Below are positions 25,650 to 32,828 of a DNA stretch of 64,000 nt, one piece after another. The first letter of the stretch is position 1, and the number at the start of each line of letters is the position of its first letter. The position numbers and the translations under genes are program-made. Source of the stretch: Idiomarina rhizosphaerae (GTDB lineage Bacteria; Pseudomonadota; Gammaproteobacteria; Enterobacterales; Alteromonadaceae); contig NZ_JAMZDE010000007.1 in assembly GCF_024159085.1 (NCBI RefSeq), positions 248,001-312,000 of the forward strand. Direction: 5' to 3'. The notes below the pieces were generated by a model. That model searched no databases and was not told the DNA's origin. It saw only the letters and a program-made list of their open reading frames with translations.

Positions 25650-25659
25650 ATACCAATTA

Positions 25660-25688
25660 ATGGCTCGCTCTCAGCGAGCCATTTTTTT
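25660..25688 (+). terminator. Rho-independent terminator after ychF
   Basis: Perfect stem ATGGCTCGCT / AGCGAGCCAT, 3-base loop CTC, then seven T. It lies 11 bases past the ychF stop. Confidence 0.95.
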
Positions 25689-25698
25689 CACTCACCCA

Positions 25699-26106
25699 TT
25701 ACTCTTCAACGATATCGCCATGCATTGGTGCCAGCAAACCCAATAGCTGATTCTGCGCAGAAACCGGAACATCCTCTTTTTCCATGGCGGCAATCAAGTG
25801 TTCGACTAAAGCGTTAAAATCCGCATTGTCTACTCCCATATTACGATGAGAAGTTTTCATATCCTCACCACTGTAATCACAAGGACCACCACTTAAATCA
25901 CACACTTGTTCACTGATGAGTTTGTGCACACGCATAATATCAACACCATCAAAATGATGCGCAATACGCTCATCACCCCCCACCTGATAAAGCATTTCTT
26001 CGACAATAGTCTCTATGCCCTGCTGCTCACCCAGTTGCTGATATAGGCTCTGAGCGAAACTCAGTGGCGCAAACAACAACGCAGCCAATAACAAAACGAT
26101 TTTCAT
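25699..26106 (-). CDS. exported truncated haemoglobin (group I type)
   Basis: 135 aa. Signal peptide MKIVLLLAALLFAPLSFA followed by the globin beginning SLYQQLGEQQGIETIVEEML. Proximal haem ligand His87 in MKTSHRNMGV, preceded by CDYSGEDM; a Tyr in the B-helix position (Tyr40). Two Cys (69, 76) could form a disulfide in the periplasm. Most truncated globins are cytoplasmic and bind O2 or NO; an exported one is less usual. Last gene of a tight minus-strand set: cupredoxin, GGDEF/EAL protein, DUF3034 protein, globin. AAGGAGAG Shine-Dalgarno. Confidence 0.85.
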   Translation of the reverse strand: MKIVLLLAALLFAPLSFAQSLYQQLGEQQGIETIVEEMLYQVGGDERIAHHFDGVDIMRVHKLISEQVCDLSGGPCDYSGEDMKTSHRNMGVDNADFNALVEHLIAAMEKEDVPVSAQNQLLGLLAPMHGDIVEE

Positions 26107-26115
26107 AGTCTCTCC

Positions 26116-26970
26116 TTAAAAGGCTGCCTGAACCGATAAATACCAACCCGTTTGATCATTCAGGCCGGCAATAGAGCCCAGATCGGTGTAGGCTCCAACA
26201 ACCGATACATGTTTATTCGGAAAGTAAGCAACAAAAAGATCTTTCCAGTCCTGCTCTTCCGCAAAACTTAAGTTGTCCGGTTTCTGCCGGTACTCAACAC
26301 CTACAGCCCAGTAACGATTAATAAATGCAGCTACGGAAGCTTCAGCCAGCCACTCGCGGCTATCTTCTTTATCGCCGCCAAAGCCAAGTAGACCCAGTTG
26401 GTTTGCTTTGCTTGAACGCAACGTCAGGTTGGCAACCCAGGTACGGTGGAAAGGCCCGTCCAACCATGCTTTTGCTGCACTGACATACCAATCGGTGCCG
26501 TTGTCATCCTTGGAGCCTACCGCAGCGGGCAACTCATAGTCGTTGTTCTTCTTGTGTTGTAAACCCAGGCTAATTTGCGGTAGGTCACCATAAATTAGAT
26601 TGCCGGCCAAACGTACTTTTGCACCAATAATTCTTTGGCTTAATTCGCCGCCAATGGTGGAGAGATCAAAGGTTTGCTCCGCATACGACAGCTCAATACG
26701 GTTATTCCAGCTCAAGCTGGCGCCCTGAACGCTTAAGCGAAAATCATCAACAGACACTTCACTCAAGTTAACCGTCGCGCCAAACTGGTCTTCACCGGCA
26801 TAACTGCTTAACGTAGCCCAGGGCACTATGCCTCCGCCACCAGAGCCTTCAAGACTACTGGTGCCACCGGTTGCCAGTAATCGGGCTCCCTGCTCTGCGG
26901 CCGCAGGTGGGCTTAAAGCTAAAACACAGGTCAGCAAAAAACCGCCGCCATATAAACACTTGTTCATCAT
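26116..26970 (-). CDS. DUF3034-family outer-membrane beta-barrel protein
   Basis: 284 aa. Signal peptide (LLTCVLALSPPAAA, cleavage near residue 25) and then GARLLATGGTSSLEGSGGGGI, the diagnostic start of the DUF3034 family. The rest alternates hydrophobic and polar residues with many aromatics (WNNRIELSYAEQTF, LAGNLIYG, YWAVGVEYRQKP) and ends in F, as in outer-membrane barrels. The function of the family is unknown to me. It starts 6 bases after the GGDEF/EAL gene and is 9 bases from the globin gene, so co-expressed. Confidence 0.8.
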   Translation of the reverse strand: MMNKCLYGGGFLLTCVLALSPPAAAEQGARLLATGGTSSLEGSGGGGIVPWATLSSYAGEDQFGATVNLSEVSVDDFRLSVQGASLSWNNRIELSYAEQTFDLSTIGGELSQRIIGAKVRLAGNLIYGDLPQISLGLQHKKNNDYELPAAVGSKDDNGTDWYVSAAKAWLDGPFHRTWVANLTLRSSKANQLGLLGFGGDKEDSREWLAEASVAAFINRYWAVGVEYRQKPDNLSFAEEQDWKDLFVAYFPNKHVSVVGAYTDLGSIAGLNDQTGWYLSVQAAF

Positions 26971-26976
26971 TCGTTA

Positions 26977-29271
26977 TCATCCATTGGTTTCATGGTTATT
27001 TAAGTACTCTATAAAGCCTGAAATCGGTAAGGGTTTACTAAAGAAATAGCCTTGCAGCTCATCGCAATGCATCGACTGCAATACTCTCCAGCTGTCCTCA
27101 TTTTCCACACCTTCTGCAACAACACGAAGGCCTAACTCGTGAGCTAAGTGTATGGTTGAACGAACAATAGACTTGTCCTTAGACTCTTCGCTCAAATGCT
27201 GTACGAAGGCTCGGTCTACTTTCAATTCCTCTACCGGTAAACGCCGCAATTGTGCCAATGACGAATGCCCGGTGCCGTAGTCATCAATAGATATTGAAAA
27301 CCCAAGACGCTTCAATGTTTCCAACCGGGCAATGGCTTTCTCCGGGTCTTTCATTACCGCACTTTCTGTAATTTCCAGTACCAGTAACTTCGGTAATTCG
27401 GGAAAATCAATAATGAGTTGTTCAAACAGCAAAGGTAAGGCGTCGCTCAATAAGTCGACGGTCGACAAGTTGATGCTCAGTTTTAGAGTCCGCCCCTGCT
27501 CATGCCAGCTCTGAAGCAGTTTGGTAGACTCTCTGCACACCCAGTTGGTCAACTCTGTAATAGCTCCCGACTGTTCGGCTAACGGAATAAATTCATCCGG
27601 CCCGACAAATCCAAGCTTGTCACTTTGCCATCTCAATAATACCTCAGCCCCCACGACTGAACCCGTCTGGCAATTAATTTTGGGTTGCAATACCAGGTTT
27701 AGCTCCTGATCCGCTACTGCACCTTTAAGTGACTCGATAATTTGTAGGCGGCGCATGTATTGTTCGTCTAACCCACTTTTATATTCAACATAAAAGCTCT
27801 TCTCGAGTTTGGACTGCTGAACACTCACTTGCGCACGACGAATAAGTAAATCGACTTCACTACCCTGCTCAGGAAAATAAACAACACCGATATTAAAGGC
27901 CAGCCGATAATCACTGTCGCCAACTTTAAAAGGCGTATCAAGAAAAGAATGAAGCTCTTTAATTTTGCCATCGAGGTCGAATGCGGGTTTATCAGAAGCG
28001 TATAGAACGGCAAATTCGTCCCCCCCGATACGAGCCAATAACTCAGCATTGCCACAACACCACTTCAAGCGAACAGATAACTGACGTAGGATGTCATCAC
28101 CAATTTCTTGTCCCACACTGTCGTTGAGAACCCTAAATTGATGAATATTCAACAGTAAAAGACATCCGGAGCTGGTATTCCCATCTAACCGGTACTGCAA
28201 CTGCTCACGGAAAAACGAACGATTAGGTAAATCGGTTAAATGGTCATGAGATGCCTGATAAGAAATTCTTTGTTCACGTTCGGAAATAGCCGTGCGCATG
28301 CTGCCAAAGGTATTGGCCAGTTCTCCGAACTCATCATCGTTCAACGACAATTCGGACTCACTGTAGTCACCTTGCTGTAATTTTCTTGCGGCTCCCGATA
28401 ACTGCTGTAACGGACGGGAAACACCTCGGGCTATGATAGCCGCCAAGAGCATCGCGATAACCAGAGCGACAATTGCAATTAAAGCAATTTGCCAATGCAG
28501 CCGCGTGAACTCGGCGGCGGCAGTTTCAAGTGACGTCGTTAAGGCCACATGAACGGCATCATCGGAACCGGCATCAAGCACCACCTCACTCCCCGCCAGT
28601 TCCTGACTTAACAGCCAGTTATCAAGAGTATGGCCGTCTTTGTTCAACGCTTTTGCGAACGAGGACACTTGCCGTGCCGCCAGACTGGAAGCAATAACTT
28701 TCCCTGAATTCTCCAGCCACAGGGTGATATCGGCATTAGCCAGGTTTTTTAACTCTTCAGCTAAACCCGAGTCCACTTCAAAACCTAAGGTTGCCCAGGC
28801 AATAAGATTTGGAGCATTAACCGGTACCGTAACCAGTTGAAACAGTTCTTCTTCGACAACCGCTAGCTCGCTGTTCGAGCCCGCCCCACTATGGTTAATG
28901 CGTAGCTGATCAAAAGCATGAGATGATGCAATTTCTTCACCTTCGGGAGTTTGCAACACCATCAACTCGGCCTCAATACGCTCACCGTAGTTGACCAAAG
29001 CTGACACTATGGTTTCCCTATCTTTTGAAGCCACCGCGCGTTTAAACCCAAAATCATCGGTGAGGACTTCTGCCGCTTGCAGCAATTGCGCGCTACGACT
29101 ATCCAGAAGCTCCCGGAAGACTCTTTCACTGACACTAAGCTCGCGCTCAATGGAGCGATCTAACTGATTCTCTGTAGCGACCCAAACCGCGGCCAAAGCA
29201 ACCAACAAAGCGCCAGCTACGAGTCCTGCAAGGATGAGAATTAAACGGGTTCTGAACCGTGTTATCATCAA
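26977..29271 (-). CDS. membrane c-di-GMP signalling protein (sensor, HAMP, GGDEF, EAL)
   Basis: 764 aa. Membrane helix 8-31, periplasmic sensor about 32-258, second helix 259-282, HAMP about 283-335, GGDEF domain about 340-500 and EAL domain about 515-760. The GGDEF motif itself is intact (416-420), but the metal-binding aspartates of the usual L-D-x-D are replaced (LNIHQF, Asn375) and no RxxD inhibitory site precedes it. The EAL domain keeps EVLLRW (543-548), NLS, LEITES, DDYGTG (663-668), Lys684 and AEGVE. So it is most likely a phosphodiesterase with a regulatory GTP-binding GGDEF. It overlaps the cupredoxin stop by 4 bases. Confidence 0.9.
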   Translation of the reverse strand: MMITRFRTRLILILAGLVAGALLVALAAVWVATENQLDRSIERELSVSERVFRELLDSRSAQLLQAAEVLTDDFGFKRAVASKDRETIVSALVNYGERIEAELMVLQTPEGEEIASSHAFDQLRINHSGAGSNSELAVVEEELFQLVTVPVNAPNLIAWATLGFEVDSGLAEELKNLANADITLWLENSGKVIASSLAARQVSSFAKALNKDGHTLDNWLLSQELAGSEVVLDAGSDDAVHVALTTSLETAAAEFTRLHWQIALIAIVALVIAMLLAAIIARGVSRPLQQLSGAARKLQQGDYSESELSLNDDEFGELANTFGSMRTAISEREQRISYQASHDHLTDLPNRSFFREQLQYRLDGNTSSGCLLLLNIHQFRVLNDSVGQEIGDDILRQLSVRLKWCCGNAELLARIGGDEFAVLYASDKPAFDLDGKIKELHSFLDTPFKVGDSDYRLAFNIGVVYFPEQGSEVDLLIRRAQVSVQQSKLEKSFYVEYKSGLDEQYMRRLQIIESLKGAVADQELNLVLQPKINCQTGSVVGAEVLLRWQSDKLGFVGPDEFIPLAEQSGAITELTNWVCRESTKLLQSWHEQGRTLKLSINLSTVDLLSDALPLLFEQLIIDFPELPKLLVLEITESAVMKDPEKAIARLETLKRLGFSISIDDYGTGHSSLAQLRRLPVEELKVDRAFVQHLSEESKDKSIVRSTIHLAHELGLRVVAEGVENEDSWRVLQSMHCDELQGYFFSKPLPISGFIEYLNNHETNG

Positions 29272-29924
29272 TTCCCTCTGCGATTAAATCGCTGTTCCAG
29301 CCGCGAGGGCTCTTTATCTTCCTGCACCGGCGGTGATACTTGCACCTGCGCAGTCAGCTTCCCTGAGTCTGAGGTTAATTTCACGTTCTGTGCTTTAGAC
29401 AGTTCGTCCCCCATCCAATAGTGCCACACCTTGACTTCGGCGGGAGCTGCATTTTCTTCCAAATTCAGCTCGACAATACCCTGCTCATTCGTTACCGCAA
29501 TATCGTATTCATCACTTACCAGCACATAAGCAACCATCTGGTCGTGGATATTACAGCCCAGAGTCACTATGCCTGCTTTATCAAAATTAACGCTTGGCTT
29601 TTCTTTATCTGAATAGAGTTTTAACTCAAAATTCTTAGCCTCAGAGAAAGAGTAAACATGATGCCGAATGTTATCACTGTTAGGAAAAACAACGTCGGTG
29701 CCCGGCTCTACTGCGCTAACCGTGGGGGTAAACTGCTTGTCCACCTGATCAACTACCGCCGACTGCCCAGGTACTTTGACAGATGGCTTTTCCCTCTCAA
29801 TTAATAGCGCAGCATTTGCCAACGGCTGACCATCTGCGGCCAAAACCTCAACCCGTACGGTATCTGCAACTACATTTTGAACCGCAAATACCGTGAAAAA
29901 AACACCAACAAAAAATCGCTTCAC
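29268..29924 (-). CDS. periplasmic cupredoxin-like (methylamine utilization MauL-type) protein
   Basis: 218 aa. Signal peptide with cleavage likely after VVA (residue 20). A carbohydrate-binding-like/Ig segment (VRVEVLAADGQPLANAAL) leads into a plastocyanin/azurin-like domain with candidate copper ligands His88/His89 (NIRHHVYSF), Cys124, His127 and Met130 (GCNIHDQM), the type 1 copper pattern. It is first in the four-gene set with the GGDEF/EAL sensor, DUF3034 and globin genes, so it may supply a redox or copper signal to the periplasmic sensor (inference). The tail is charged. Confidence 0.82.
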   Translation of the reverse strand: MKRFFVGVFFTVFAVQNVVADTVRVEVLAADGQPLANAALLIEREKPSVKVPGQSAVVDQVDKQFTPTVSAVEPGTDVVFPNSDNIRHHVYSFSEAKNFELKLYSDKEKPSVNFDKAGIVTLGCNIHDQMVAYVLVSDEYDIAVTNEQGIVELNLEENAAPAEVKVWHYWMGDELSKAQNVKLTSDSGKLTAQVQVSPPVQEDKEPSRLEQRFNRRGN

Positions 29925-30012
29925 ACAGGATCCTCCACAAAATCACCATTGGGCGCGCACCAGTCAACCGTAACCGAAAAAACGAAACTGCGCTATGATT
30001 GGAGTACGTATT

Positions 30013-30033
30013 AATGATCCACTATGGTTCATT
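30013..30033. promoter_or_regulatory. operator-like inverted repeat between the cupredoxin gene and fumC
   Basis: AATGATCCA-CTA-TGGTTCATT: 9-base arms with one mismatch, 3-base centre. It lies in the 194-base divergent intergenic region, so it could serve either gene. No regulator is assigned. Confidence 0.4.
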
Positions 30034-30079
30034 ATTGGTACTTGAAATACAGTAAGTGTAGACATACGAATTTAGACAC

Positions 30080-30100
30080 TAAGCTATTACTCTTAGCTTA
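30080..30100 (+). promoter_or_regulatory. hairpin in the fumC leader region
   Basis: Perfect TAAGCTA / TAGCTTA arms with a 7-base loop, ending 6 bases before the AGGAGGG ribosome site of fumC (30106-30112). It could be an operator or an mRNA hairpin; no T-run follows. Confidence 0.4.
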
Positions 30101-32338: not shown

Positions 32339-32415
32339 GGCTACGTAGCTCAGCTGGTTAGAGCACAGCACTCATAATGCTGGGGTCGCAAGTTCGAATC
32401 TCGCCGTAGCCACCA
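32339..32415 (+). tRNA. tRNA-Met (anticodon CAT, elongator)
   Basis: 77 bases with encoded CCA. Acceptor GGCTACG/CGTAGCC, anticodon loop CTCATAA, T-loop TTCGAAT. The sequence closely resembles E. coli metT, the elongator species, and its paired first base pair excludes the initiator. Confidence 0.95.
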
Positions 32416-32434
32416 ACCTTTAACTGATTATGAT

Positions 32435-32519
32435 GCGGACGTGGTGGAATTGGTAGACACGCTGGATTTAGGTTCCAGTGCCTCACGGCGTGAGAGTTCA
32501 AGTCTCTCCGTCCGCACCA
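32435..32519 (+). tRNA. tRNA-Leu (anticodon TAG)
   Basis: 85 bases with encoded CCA and a long variable arm (CCTCACGGCGTGAG region). Acceptor GCGGACG/CGTCCGC, anticodon loop TTTAGGT. Corresponds to E. coli leuW in the syntenic cluster. Confidence 0.95.
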
Positions 32520-32540
32520 ACTCTCAGAGCCAGCTAAAAT

Positions 32541-32615
32541 TGGGGCATAGCCAAGCGGTAAGGCAGCGGGTTTTGATCCCGCGATTCCCAGGTTCGATCC
32601 CTGGTGCCCCAGCCA
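32541..32615 (+). tRNA. tRNA-Gln (anticodon TTG), copy 1
   Basis: 75 bases with encoded GCCA end. Acceptor TGGGGCA/TGCCCCA, anticodon loop TTTTGAT. Identical over its whole length to copy 2. Confidence 0.95.
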
Positions 32616-32652
32616 TTAGTTGTTTCCAAAAGTGATTGCCATCTTAGTAGGA

Positions 32653-32727
32653 TGGGGCATAGCCAAGCGGTAAGGCAGCGGGTTTTGATCCCGCGATTCC
32701 CAGGTTCGATCCCTGGTGCCCCAGCCA
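32653..32727 (+). tRNA. tRNA-Gln (anticodon TTG), copy 2
   Basis: Exact repeat of copy 1, 112 bases downstream; the spacers flanking the copies differ. E. coli has the matching pair glnU/glnW in its metT cluster. Confidence 0.95.
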
Positions 32728-32741
32728 TACTAACTACTGTT

Positions 32742-32828
32742 GCGGTGGTGGCGGAATTGGTAGACGCGCTAGCTTCAGGTGCTAGTGTCCGCAAGGACGT
32801 GGGGGTTCAAGTCCCCCCCTCCGCACCA
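32742..32828 (+). tRNA. tRNA-Leu (anticodon CAG)
   Basis: 87 bases with encoded CCA. Anticodon loop TTCAGGT, long variable arm (GTCCGCAAGGAC). The acceptor stem GCGGTGG/CCTCCGC contains a T-T mismatch at position 5-68. E. coli tRNA-Leu(CAG) also has a mismatch there, so this may be genuine rather than decay. Confidence 0.93.

Follow-up and report, generated by a model that had tools for sequence, protein, structure and literature searches.

A conserved four-gene set of cupredoxin, dCache_3 receptor, DUF3034 barrel and exported globin, with a possible role in c-di-GMP signalling

Layout of the locus

The window analysed here is a stretch of 64,000 nucleotides from Idiomarina rhizosphaerae (contig NZ_JAMZDE010000007.1, positions 248,001 to 312,000). 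Open reading frame (ORF) calls identified four tightly packed genes on its minus strand, in the order cupredoxin, GGDEF/EAL, DUF3034 and globin. The first (29268–29924; 218 amino acids, with a GTG start and a signal peptide) encodes a cupredoxin-like protein of the periplasm, and the second (26977–29271; 764 amino acids) an inner-membrane receptor with dCache_3, HAMP, GGDEF and EAL domains, predicted to be a phosphodiesterase of cyclic di-GMP (c-di-GMP). These are followed by a DUF3034 outer-membrane beta-barrel (26116–26970; 284 amino acids) and an exported group 1 truncated haemoglobin (25699–26106; 135 amino acids). The joint travel of these four genes across many unrelated bacteria points to an undescribed signalling unit.

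The cupredoxin and receptor genes overlapped by 4 bases (by 1 base only, should translation begin at the ATG at 29268), the receptor gene was separated from DUF3034 by 6 bases, and DUF3034 from the globin by 9 bases. A preliminary description of this DNA had reported that the genes overlapped or lay no more than 10 bases apart, and had named them as a cupredoxin, a GGDEF/EAL sensor, a DUF3034 barrel and an exported globin; the former was confirmed by the ORFs, and the latter by Pfam, alignments and a structural model. It had also called them surely one transcript. A single transcript is likely, because of the tight spacing; pattern scanning neither proved nor excluded it. Scanning for patterns between 25600 and 30140 found no sigma-70-like promoter on the minus strand, and comparison of the window with 10 Idiomarina-group relatives revealed no conserved motif in the divergent intergenic region (29925–30100) that precedes the set. 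A strong, terminator-like stem-loop of 11 pairs with a T run (25659–25683) was situated between the globin and the convergent upstream neighbour; overall, terminator-like sites found by pattern scan were not in excess (5, against 4.4 in shuffled sequence).

Conservation of the set

Two samples of loci were compared. The 80 named loci were the top 80 among 562 DUF3034 loci and were biased towards close relatives of the window. A less biased sample, of 398 genomes taken evenly across the phylum, contributed 39 loci outside the window from 38 genomes, one of which had a second, broken copy of DUF3034 (L175, in genome G133, interrupted by a stop codon and having a nearby globin match that also contained a stop).

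The globin followed DUF3034 in all 81 loci when the window was added to the named set, and the complete order of the window was present in 75 of these. Of the latter, 64 were plain, nine had an extra GGDEF-EAL gene upstream, one had its EAL gene in pieces and one had an overlapping ORF start. The other six loci were cut by contig ends (L067, L122 and L125), lacked the EAL gene (L097 and L128), or retained DUF3034 and globin alone (L070). Two ideas were rejected. The second upstream GGDEF-EAL, considered as an opposing cyclase in eight Pseudomonas loci, was also phosphodiesterase-like; and gene fusion was ruled out as a link among the four, the seeming overlaps being artefacts of ORF starts.

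The four genes occurred together in 29 of the 39 phylum-sampled loci, in three arrangements: the order of the window (22 loci), cupredoxin-EAL divergent from DUF3034-globin (six), and DUF3034-globin-cupredoxin-EAL (one). Retention of linkage through such rearrangement is stronger evidence than a single frozen order. Among 13 plasmid records of DUF3034, the globin adjoined in every case and the cupredoxin was present in 12; annotation placed all four genes on three plasmids, two of Caballeronia and one of Novosphingobium. Adjacency maintained across both the phylum sample and plasmids is beyond chance. The genes are consistently clustered in other genomes, and this test, which the preliminary description had set for its own proposal, was thus decided in its favour. 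DUF3034 was not found in phage records, and PADLOC, consulted for a role in anti-phage defence, gave no match for three of the proteins. RefSeq names the products DUF3034 family protein, group 1 truncated hemoglobin, methylamine utilization protein and EAL domain-containing protein.

The genes flanking the set were not conserved. When 973 neighbouring ORFs were clustered, the widest neighbour family occurred in only 5 of 63 groups, and those families that did recur came from related lineages. The unit consists of these four genes.

Two modules and exchange of partners

Occurrence of each gene was recorded across the 398 genomes, counting the globin at E < 1e-30 and the cupredoxin at E < 1e-28, thresholds placed at gaps in the lists of matches; Fisher values from these counts take no account of kinship and were given no weight. 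DUF3034 was present in 39 genomes and the globin clade in 41, namely the same 39 plus G209 and G378. The cupredoxin was present in 53 genomes, including 38 of those with DUF3034 (it was missing from G133), and the sensor in 50, including 37 of those with DUF3034 (it was missing from G076 and G133). Cupredoxin and sensor were common to 49 genomes, and 48 of 57 sensor places were within 3.5 kb of a cupredoxin. Given near-complete sharing within each pair, the set divides into two modules. One is the near-obligate pairing of DUF3034 with the globin, and the other, with a wider range, is that of cupredoxin with the dCache_3 receptor.

The second pair was further examined in 26 cupredoxin loci without DUF3034 (L184-L209). 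A receptor adjoined the cupredoxin in 18 of these, comprising 13 GGDEF-EAL proteins, two nucleotide cyclases (L205 and L206), one Ser/Thr kinase (L203) and two hybrid histidine kinases (L208 and L209); eight had no receptor, one of them being situated at a contig end. Receptor output varies between GGDEF-EAL, nucleotide cyclase and Ser/Thr kinase, and probably includes histidine kinase, where the receptor calls depend on a custom sensor profile that includes HAMP. In 13 of the 26 loci (within L184-L201 and L204) the cupredoxin adjoined a family of outer-membrane type, about 410 residues long, with weak porin matches and no Pfam family of its own. It stands where DUF3034-globin would be, and has no detectable sequence kinship with DUF3034 (hhalign probability 4). 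In a cupredoxin tree of 59 rows, partner labels required 10 changes, compared with a least possible value of 2 and a mean of 23 after shuffling, which reflects clustering of labels through kinship; starred branches forced at least three changes for DUF3034.

The preliminary description had offered either the cupredoxin or the globin as the ligand carrier of the sensor. Partner swapping, in which receptors with varied outputs stand beside DUF3034-free cupredoxins, supports a partnership between cupredoxin and sensor. The globin, on the other hand, partners the DUF3034 barrel rather than the sensor, since its presence follows DUF3034 and not the receptor.

The set might instead represent a periplasmic redox or uptake pathway, in which the barrel is a channel, globin and cupredoxin together carry out redox chemistry on a small molecule, and the receptor is merely a co-located regulator. 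Several loci without a receptor do keep DUF3034-globin or the cupredoxin. At L208:2021-6629, a MauG-type dihaem peroxidase gene is found between the cupredoxin and a PAS-hybrid histidine kinase, while a distant cupredoxin relative (~29% identity) on pSymA of Sinorhizobium meliloti (L233:4918-6489) is near SCO, hemA, groEL, cbb3-like and soxYZ genes and lacks a receptor. However, 49 of the 53 cupredoxin genomes also carry the receptor family, and clustering of neighbours gave no enzyme family that recurred beside the set. Such a pathway is improbable, the least probable of the three rivals weighed here.

Other associations were observed around these modules. At L205:1079-3849 and L206:1052-3617, an exported protein without a recognised identity lies upstream of a cupredoxin and then a receptor that joins dCache_3 and HAMP to an adenylate/guanylate cyclase domain. 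On a Comamonas plasmid (L234:4964-8918), genes for DUF4394, cupredoxin and EAL stand consecutively, which may be a further partner swap. Chemotaxis receptors adjoin cupredoxin-EAL loci in four places (L139:4004-5965, L164:2868-4634, L187:3950-5692 and L188:6828-8603). The sensor of G174 is beside a TonB-dependent receptor, and L230:2337-7262 comprises a cupredoxin-free sensor-EAL gene divergent from a TonB-dependent receptor.

The cupredoxin and its receptor

The cupredoxin ligand set (H88, C124, H127 and M130, with a short CxxHxxM loop) was invariant in all 59 aligned rows, including the window and those members linked to kinases and cyclases. The window protein itself had no Pfam match; Cupredoxin_1 matched 14 of 31 aligned relatives (best E = 1e-6), and the family profile found the cupredoxin domain of the nitrite reductase CuNIR 6hbe (E = 3e-4). 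By its ligand residues and recognisable domain, the protein is a predicted type 1 (blue) copper cupredoxin. The His plus CxxHxxM pattern is like that of amicyanin- and plastocyanin-type cupredoxins, the loop being compared with the length familiar from amicyanin. Unlike that type, the set contains no mau genes, and the protein has an extra C-terminal part, which matched CarboxypepD_reg in 25 of 31 relatives. No mau genes were recognised by eye beside the cupredoxin, where neighbour families were clustered but carried no database names; the RefSeq label of its relatives, 'methylamine utilization protein', is probably misleading.

The receptor of the window matched dCache_3 (4e-12), HAMP (7e-10), GGDEF (2e-30) and EAL (3e-71) in Pfam. 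The EAL catalytic set (E543, N601, E633, D663, D664, K684, E720 and Q740), to which we assign the roles familiar from known EAL enzymes, was kept in 76–77 of 77 rows (there was one gap) and in all 32 rows of a second alignment. The window retains an intact GGDEF motif, but few rows of the family do (9 of 77 and 10 of 32), the better match being counted at loci with two GGDEF-EAL genes. Given intact EAL residues and a motif that has mostly decayed across the family, the receptor looks like a c-di-GMP phosphodiesterase, so that the c-di-GMP enzyme named by the preliminary description was retained in a narrower form.

The periplasmic domain was identified as dCache_3 in 29 of 29 receptors and as CHASE4 in 3 of 29. 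Over 108 rows the sensor had no conserved Cys; His95 occurred in 87 rows and Met162 in 60, positions at which the window has Tyr and Leu, respectively. The lack of Cys and the variability of both other residues speak against binding of metal by the sensor itself. By comparison, the CHASE4 GGDEF-EAL receptors of P. aeruginosa (IsmP/PA2072, PA14_37690 and PA14_53310) bind iron, haem or copper, according to the available part of PMC13277305, in which no cupredoxin is mentioned. The receptor resembles these proteins in being an inner-membrane protein with a periplasmic sensor and GGDEF-EAL output (PMC13277305, in part), and differs from them in that its sensor is best matched by dCache_3, lacks well-conserved ligands of metal type, and is encoded alongside a cupredoxin, a barrel and a globin.

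These features bear on the notion that the set is a copper-handling unit, with the barrel transporting copper, the cupredoxin storing or carrying it, the receptor reporting copper level to c-di-GMP and the haem protein guarding against copper-driven oxidants. It would accommodate the invariant copper ligands, the binding of copper by a related type of receptor (PA14_37690; PMC13277305, in part), and the presence of the copper transporter PcoB among fold matches to the barrel, though with a Z score of only 12.7. Against this, PcoB ranked 34th in the fold list, below many unrelated barrels; no conserved copper-resistance gene was recognised among clustered neighbours; and both the His and the Met of the sensor differ in the window. 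Copper handling is judged unlikely.

The barrel and the globin

The third protein matched PF11231 (DUF3034) with E = 5e-110 over all 255 positions, and its nearest named relative, at 72%, was a DUF3034 protein of Idiomarina aquatica. An AlphaFold2 model produced a 12-strand barrel (pLDDT 80.5), except that an N-terminal stretch at approximately residues 34–52 was highly conserved and modelled with low confidence. Sequence comparison found no solved relative of DUF3034 (best E = 0.39). Matches by fold were to generic 12-strand channels, namely FapF (Z = 20.1), KdgM (18.3), COG4313 (18.2) and NanC (17.7), in a list from which omission is no evidence of absence.

The globin matched Bac_globin (2e-11; 44.8 bits, against a cut-off of 21) and is, by its sequence, a group 1 truncated haemoglobin. 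Positions B10, E11 and F8 were assigned through alignment to HbN of Shewanella benthica and with PMC11904497 (in part). The haem ligand His(F8) and the pair Cys69/Cys76 were present in 119 of 119 rows; B10 was L, I, V or M in 117, E11 was hydrophobic (L, F, I or M) in 119, and E14 was Q, H or K in 113. In these respects, the protein is like TrHbN-2 globins such as S. benthica HbN (7tt9, 8ugz), sharing the group 1 fold, the haem ligand His(F8), hydrophobic residues at B10, E7 and E11, and Cys at E16; unlike S. benthica HbN, it is exported, often lipid-anchored, and has a further Cys, also invariant, in the EF loop (PMC11904497, in part). A simple pattern search detected a lipobox-like motif in 58 of the 80 named globins and in 20 of the 38 from the phylum sample, while the window globin had a plain signal peptide. 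The available parts of PMC3770913 and PMC11247825 cover truncated haemoglobins only in general terms.

The preceding observations are relevant to sensing of O2 or NO, whereby the globin would bind gas, the cupredoxin would relay the signal to the phosphodiesterase, and dispersal would be favoured. An invariant His(F8) agrees with this, as does the hydrophobic B10/E7/E11 set, which goes with low O2 affinity of the TrHbN-2 type in the available part of PMC11904497. Yet the Tyr(B10)/Gln(E11) combination of NO-dioxygenating TrHbN was absent in 119 of 119 rows, which makes classical NO dioxygenation unlikely and led to rejection of that type. Moreover, the globin tracks DUF3034 rather than the receptor, there being 15 cupredoxin-positive genomes without DUF3034 and 14 without the globin. 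Gas sensing of this kind is quite unlikely.

Beyond the set, five tRNA genes (Met, Leu, two Gln and Leu) were clustered at 32339–32828 of the window.

A proposed signalling unit

The four genes may form one envelope-spanning unit that ends in a c-di-GMP phosphodiesterase, a reading held tentatively and with rather less than an even chance. The cupredoxin would serve the dCache_3 receptor as a dedicated partner in the periplasm, and the receptor would read the copper occupancy or redox state of the cupredoxin and thereby set the activity of the cytoplasmic EAL phosphodiesterase. The DUF3034 barrel and the often lipid-anchored globin would constitute the outer-membrane end, admitting or reacting with a small molecule or oxidant that alters the cupredoxin. 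Of this, the analysis showed clustering, co-occurrence, the two modules, invariant copper and haem ligands, the intact EAL site and the barrel fold of the model. The loading of copper, the docking of cupredoxin on the sensor, the ligand, the direction of the signal and the outer-membrane step are inferred.

By analogy, the set was classed with receptor-linked c-di-GMP control that uses a periplasmic partner. NspS-MbaA of Vibrio cholerae pairs a periplasmic polyamine-binding protein with a GGDEF-EAL receptor; the present set likewise has a periplasmic protein and a GGDEF-EAL receptor, but the partner is a cupredoxin rather than a solute-binding protein, and outer-membrane parts are added. YfiBNR encodes an outer-membrane lipoprotein, a periplasmic regulator and an inner-membrane c-di-GMP enzyme in one operon. 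That enzyme is a cyclase, whereas here the EAL is intact and the GGDEF mostly decayed, and YfiBNR is without cupredoxin, barrel or globin; a tripartite system of the YfiBNR kind with diguanylate cyclase output was rejected on this account. The preliminary description knew of no account of such a circuit, and none of the four-gene set was found in searches of an open-access library, subscription papers being mostly outside this scope.

Several observations weigh against the proposed unit. At least one of the four genes was missing from 10 of the 39 sampled loci (cupredoxin-DUF3034-globin, one; DUF3034-globin-cupredoxin, two; EAL-DUF3034-globin, one; DUF3034-globin, five; and the broken DUF3034 copy, one), and the receptor was the gene most often absent from a locus. 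Nine of the 57 sensors were away from any cupredoxin; G174 has a sensor and no cupredoxin, and G133 has DUF3034-globin, yet its genome contains no match to cupredoxin or sensor. The two histidine kinase cases are the weakest, having no Pfam dCache_3 and being missed by a periplasm-only profile. Finally, a mirror-tree comparison of 43 loci found nothing beyond shared history between cupredoxin and sensor (partial r = 0.06, interval -0.04 to 0.19); among the larger values were those for DUF3034-globin (0.33), for GGDEF/EAL-DUF3034 (0.37) and for one half of the receptor against its other half (0.41). Distances were large and may be saturated.

A broader suggestion, and a more doubtful one, is that these proteins represent a new receptor class, where a blue copper protein is the protein ligand of dCache_3-type receptors and its redox or copper state is read across the membrane. 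Outputs would be swappable (c-di-GMP phosphodiesterase, nucleotide cyclase, Ser/Thr kinase and probably histidine kinase), as would outer-membrane modules (DUF3034 with exported globin, or the barrel of about 410 residues).

To our knowledge, few c-di-GMP receptors have an input that is known. In this case, genome context names likely partners, the cupredoxin for the sensor and the globin for the outer-membrane barrel. If the proposal is true, DUF3034 would gain a function and the exported haemoglobin would be explained, while periplasmic copper or redox chemistry would be joined to the control of biofilm and motility in Pseudomonas, Shewanella, Marinobacter, the Halomonas group, Xanthomonadaceae and others.

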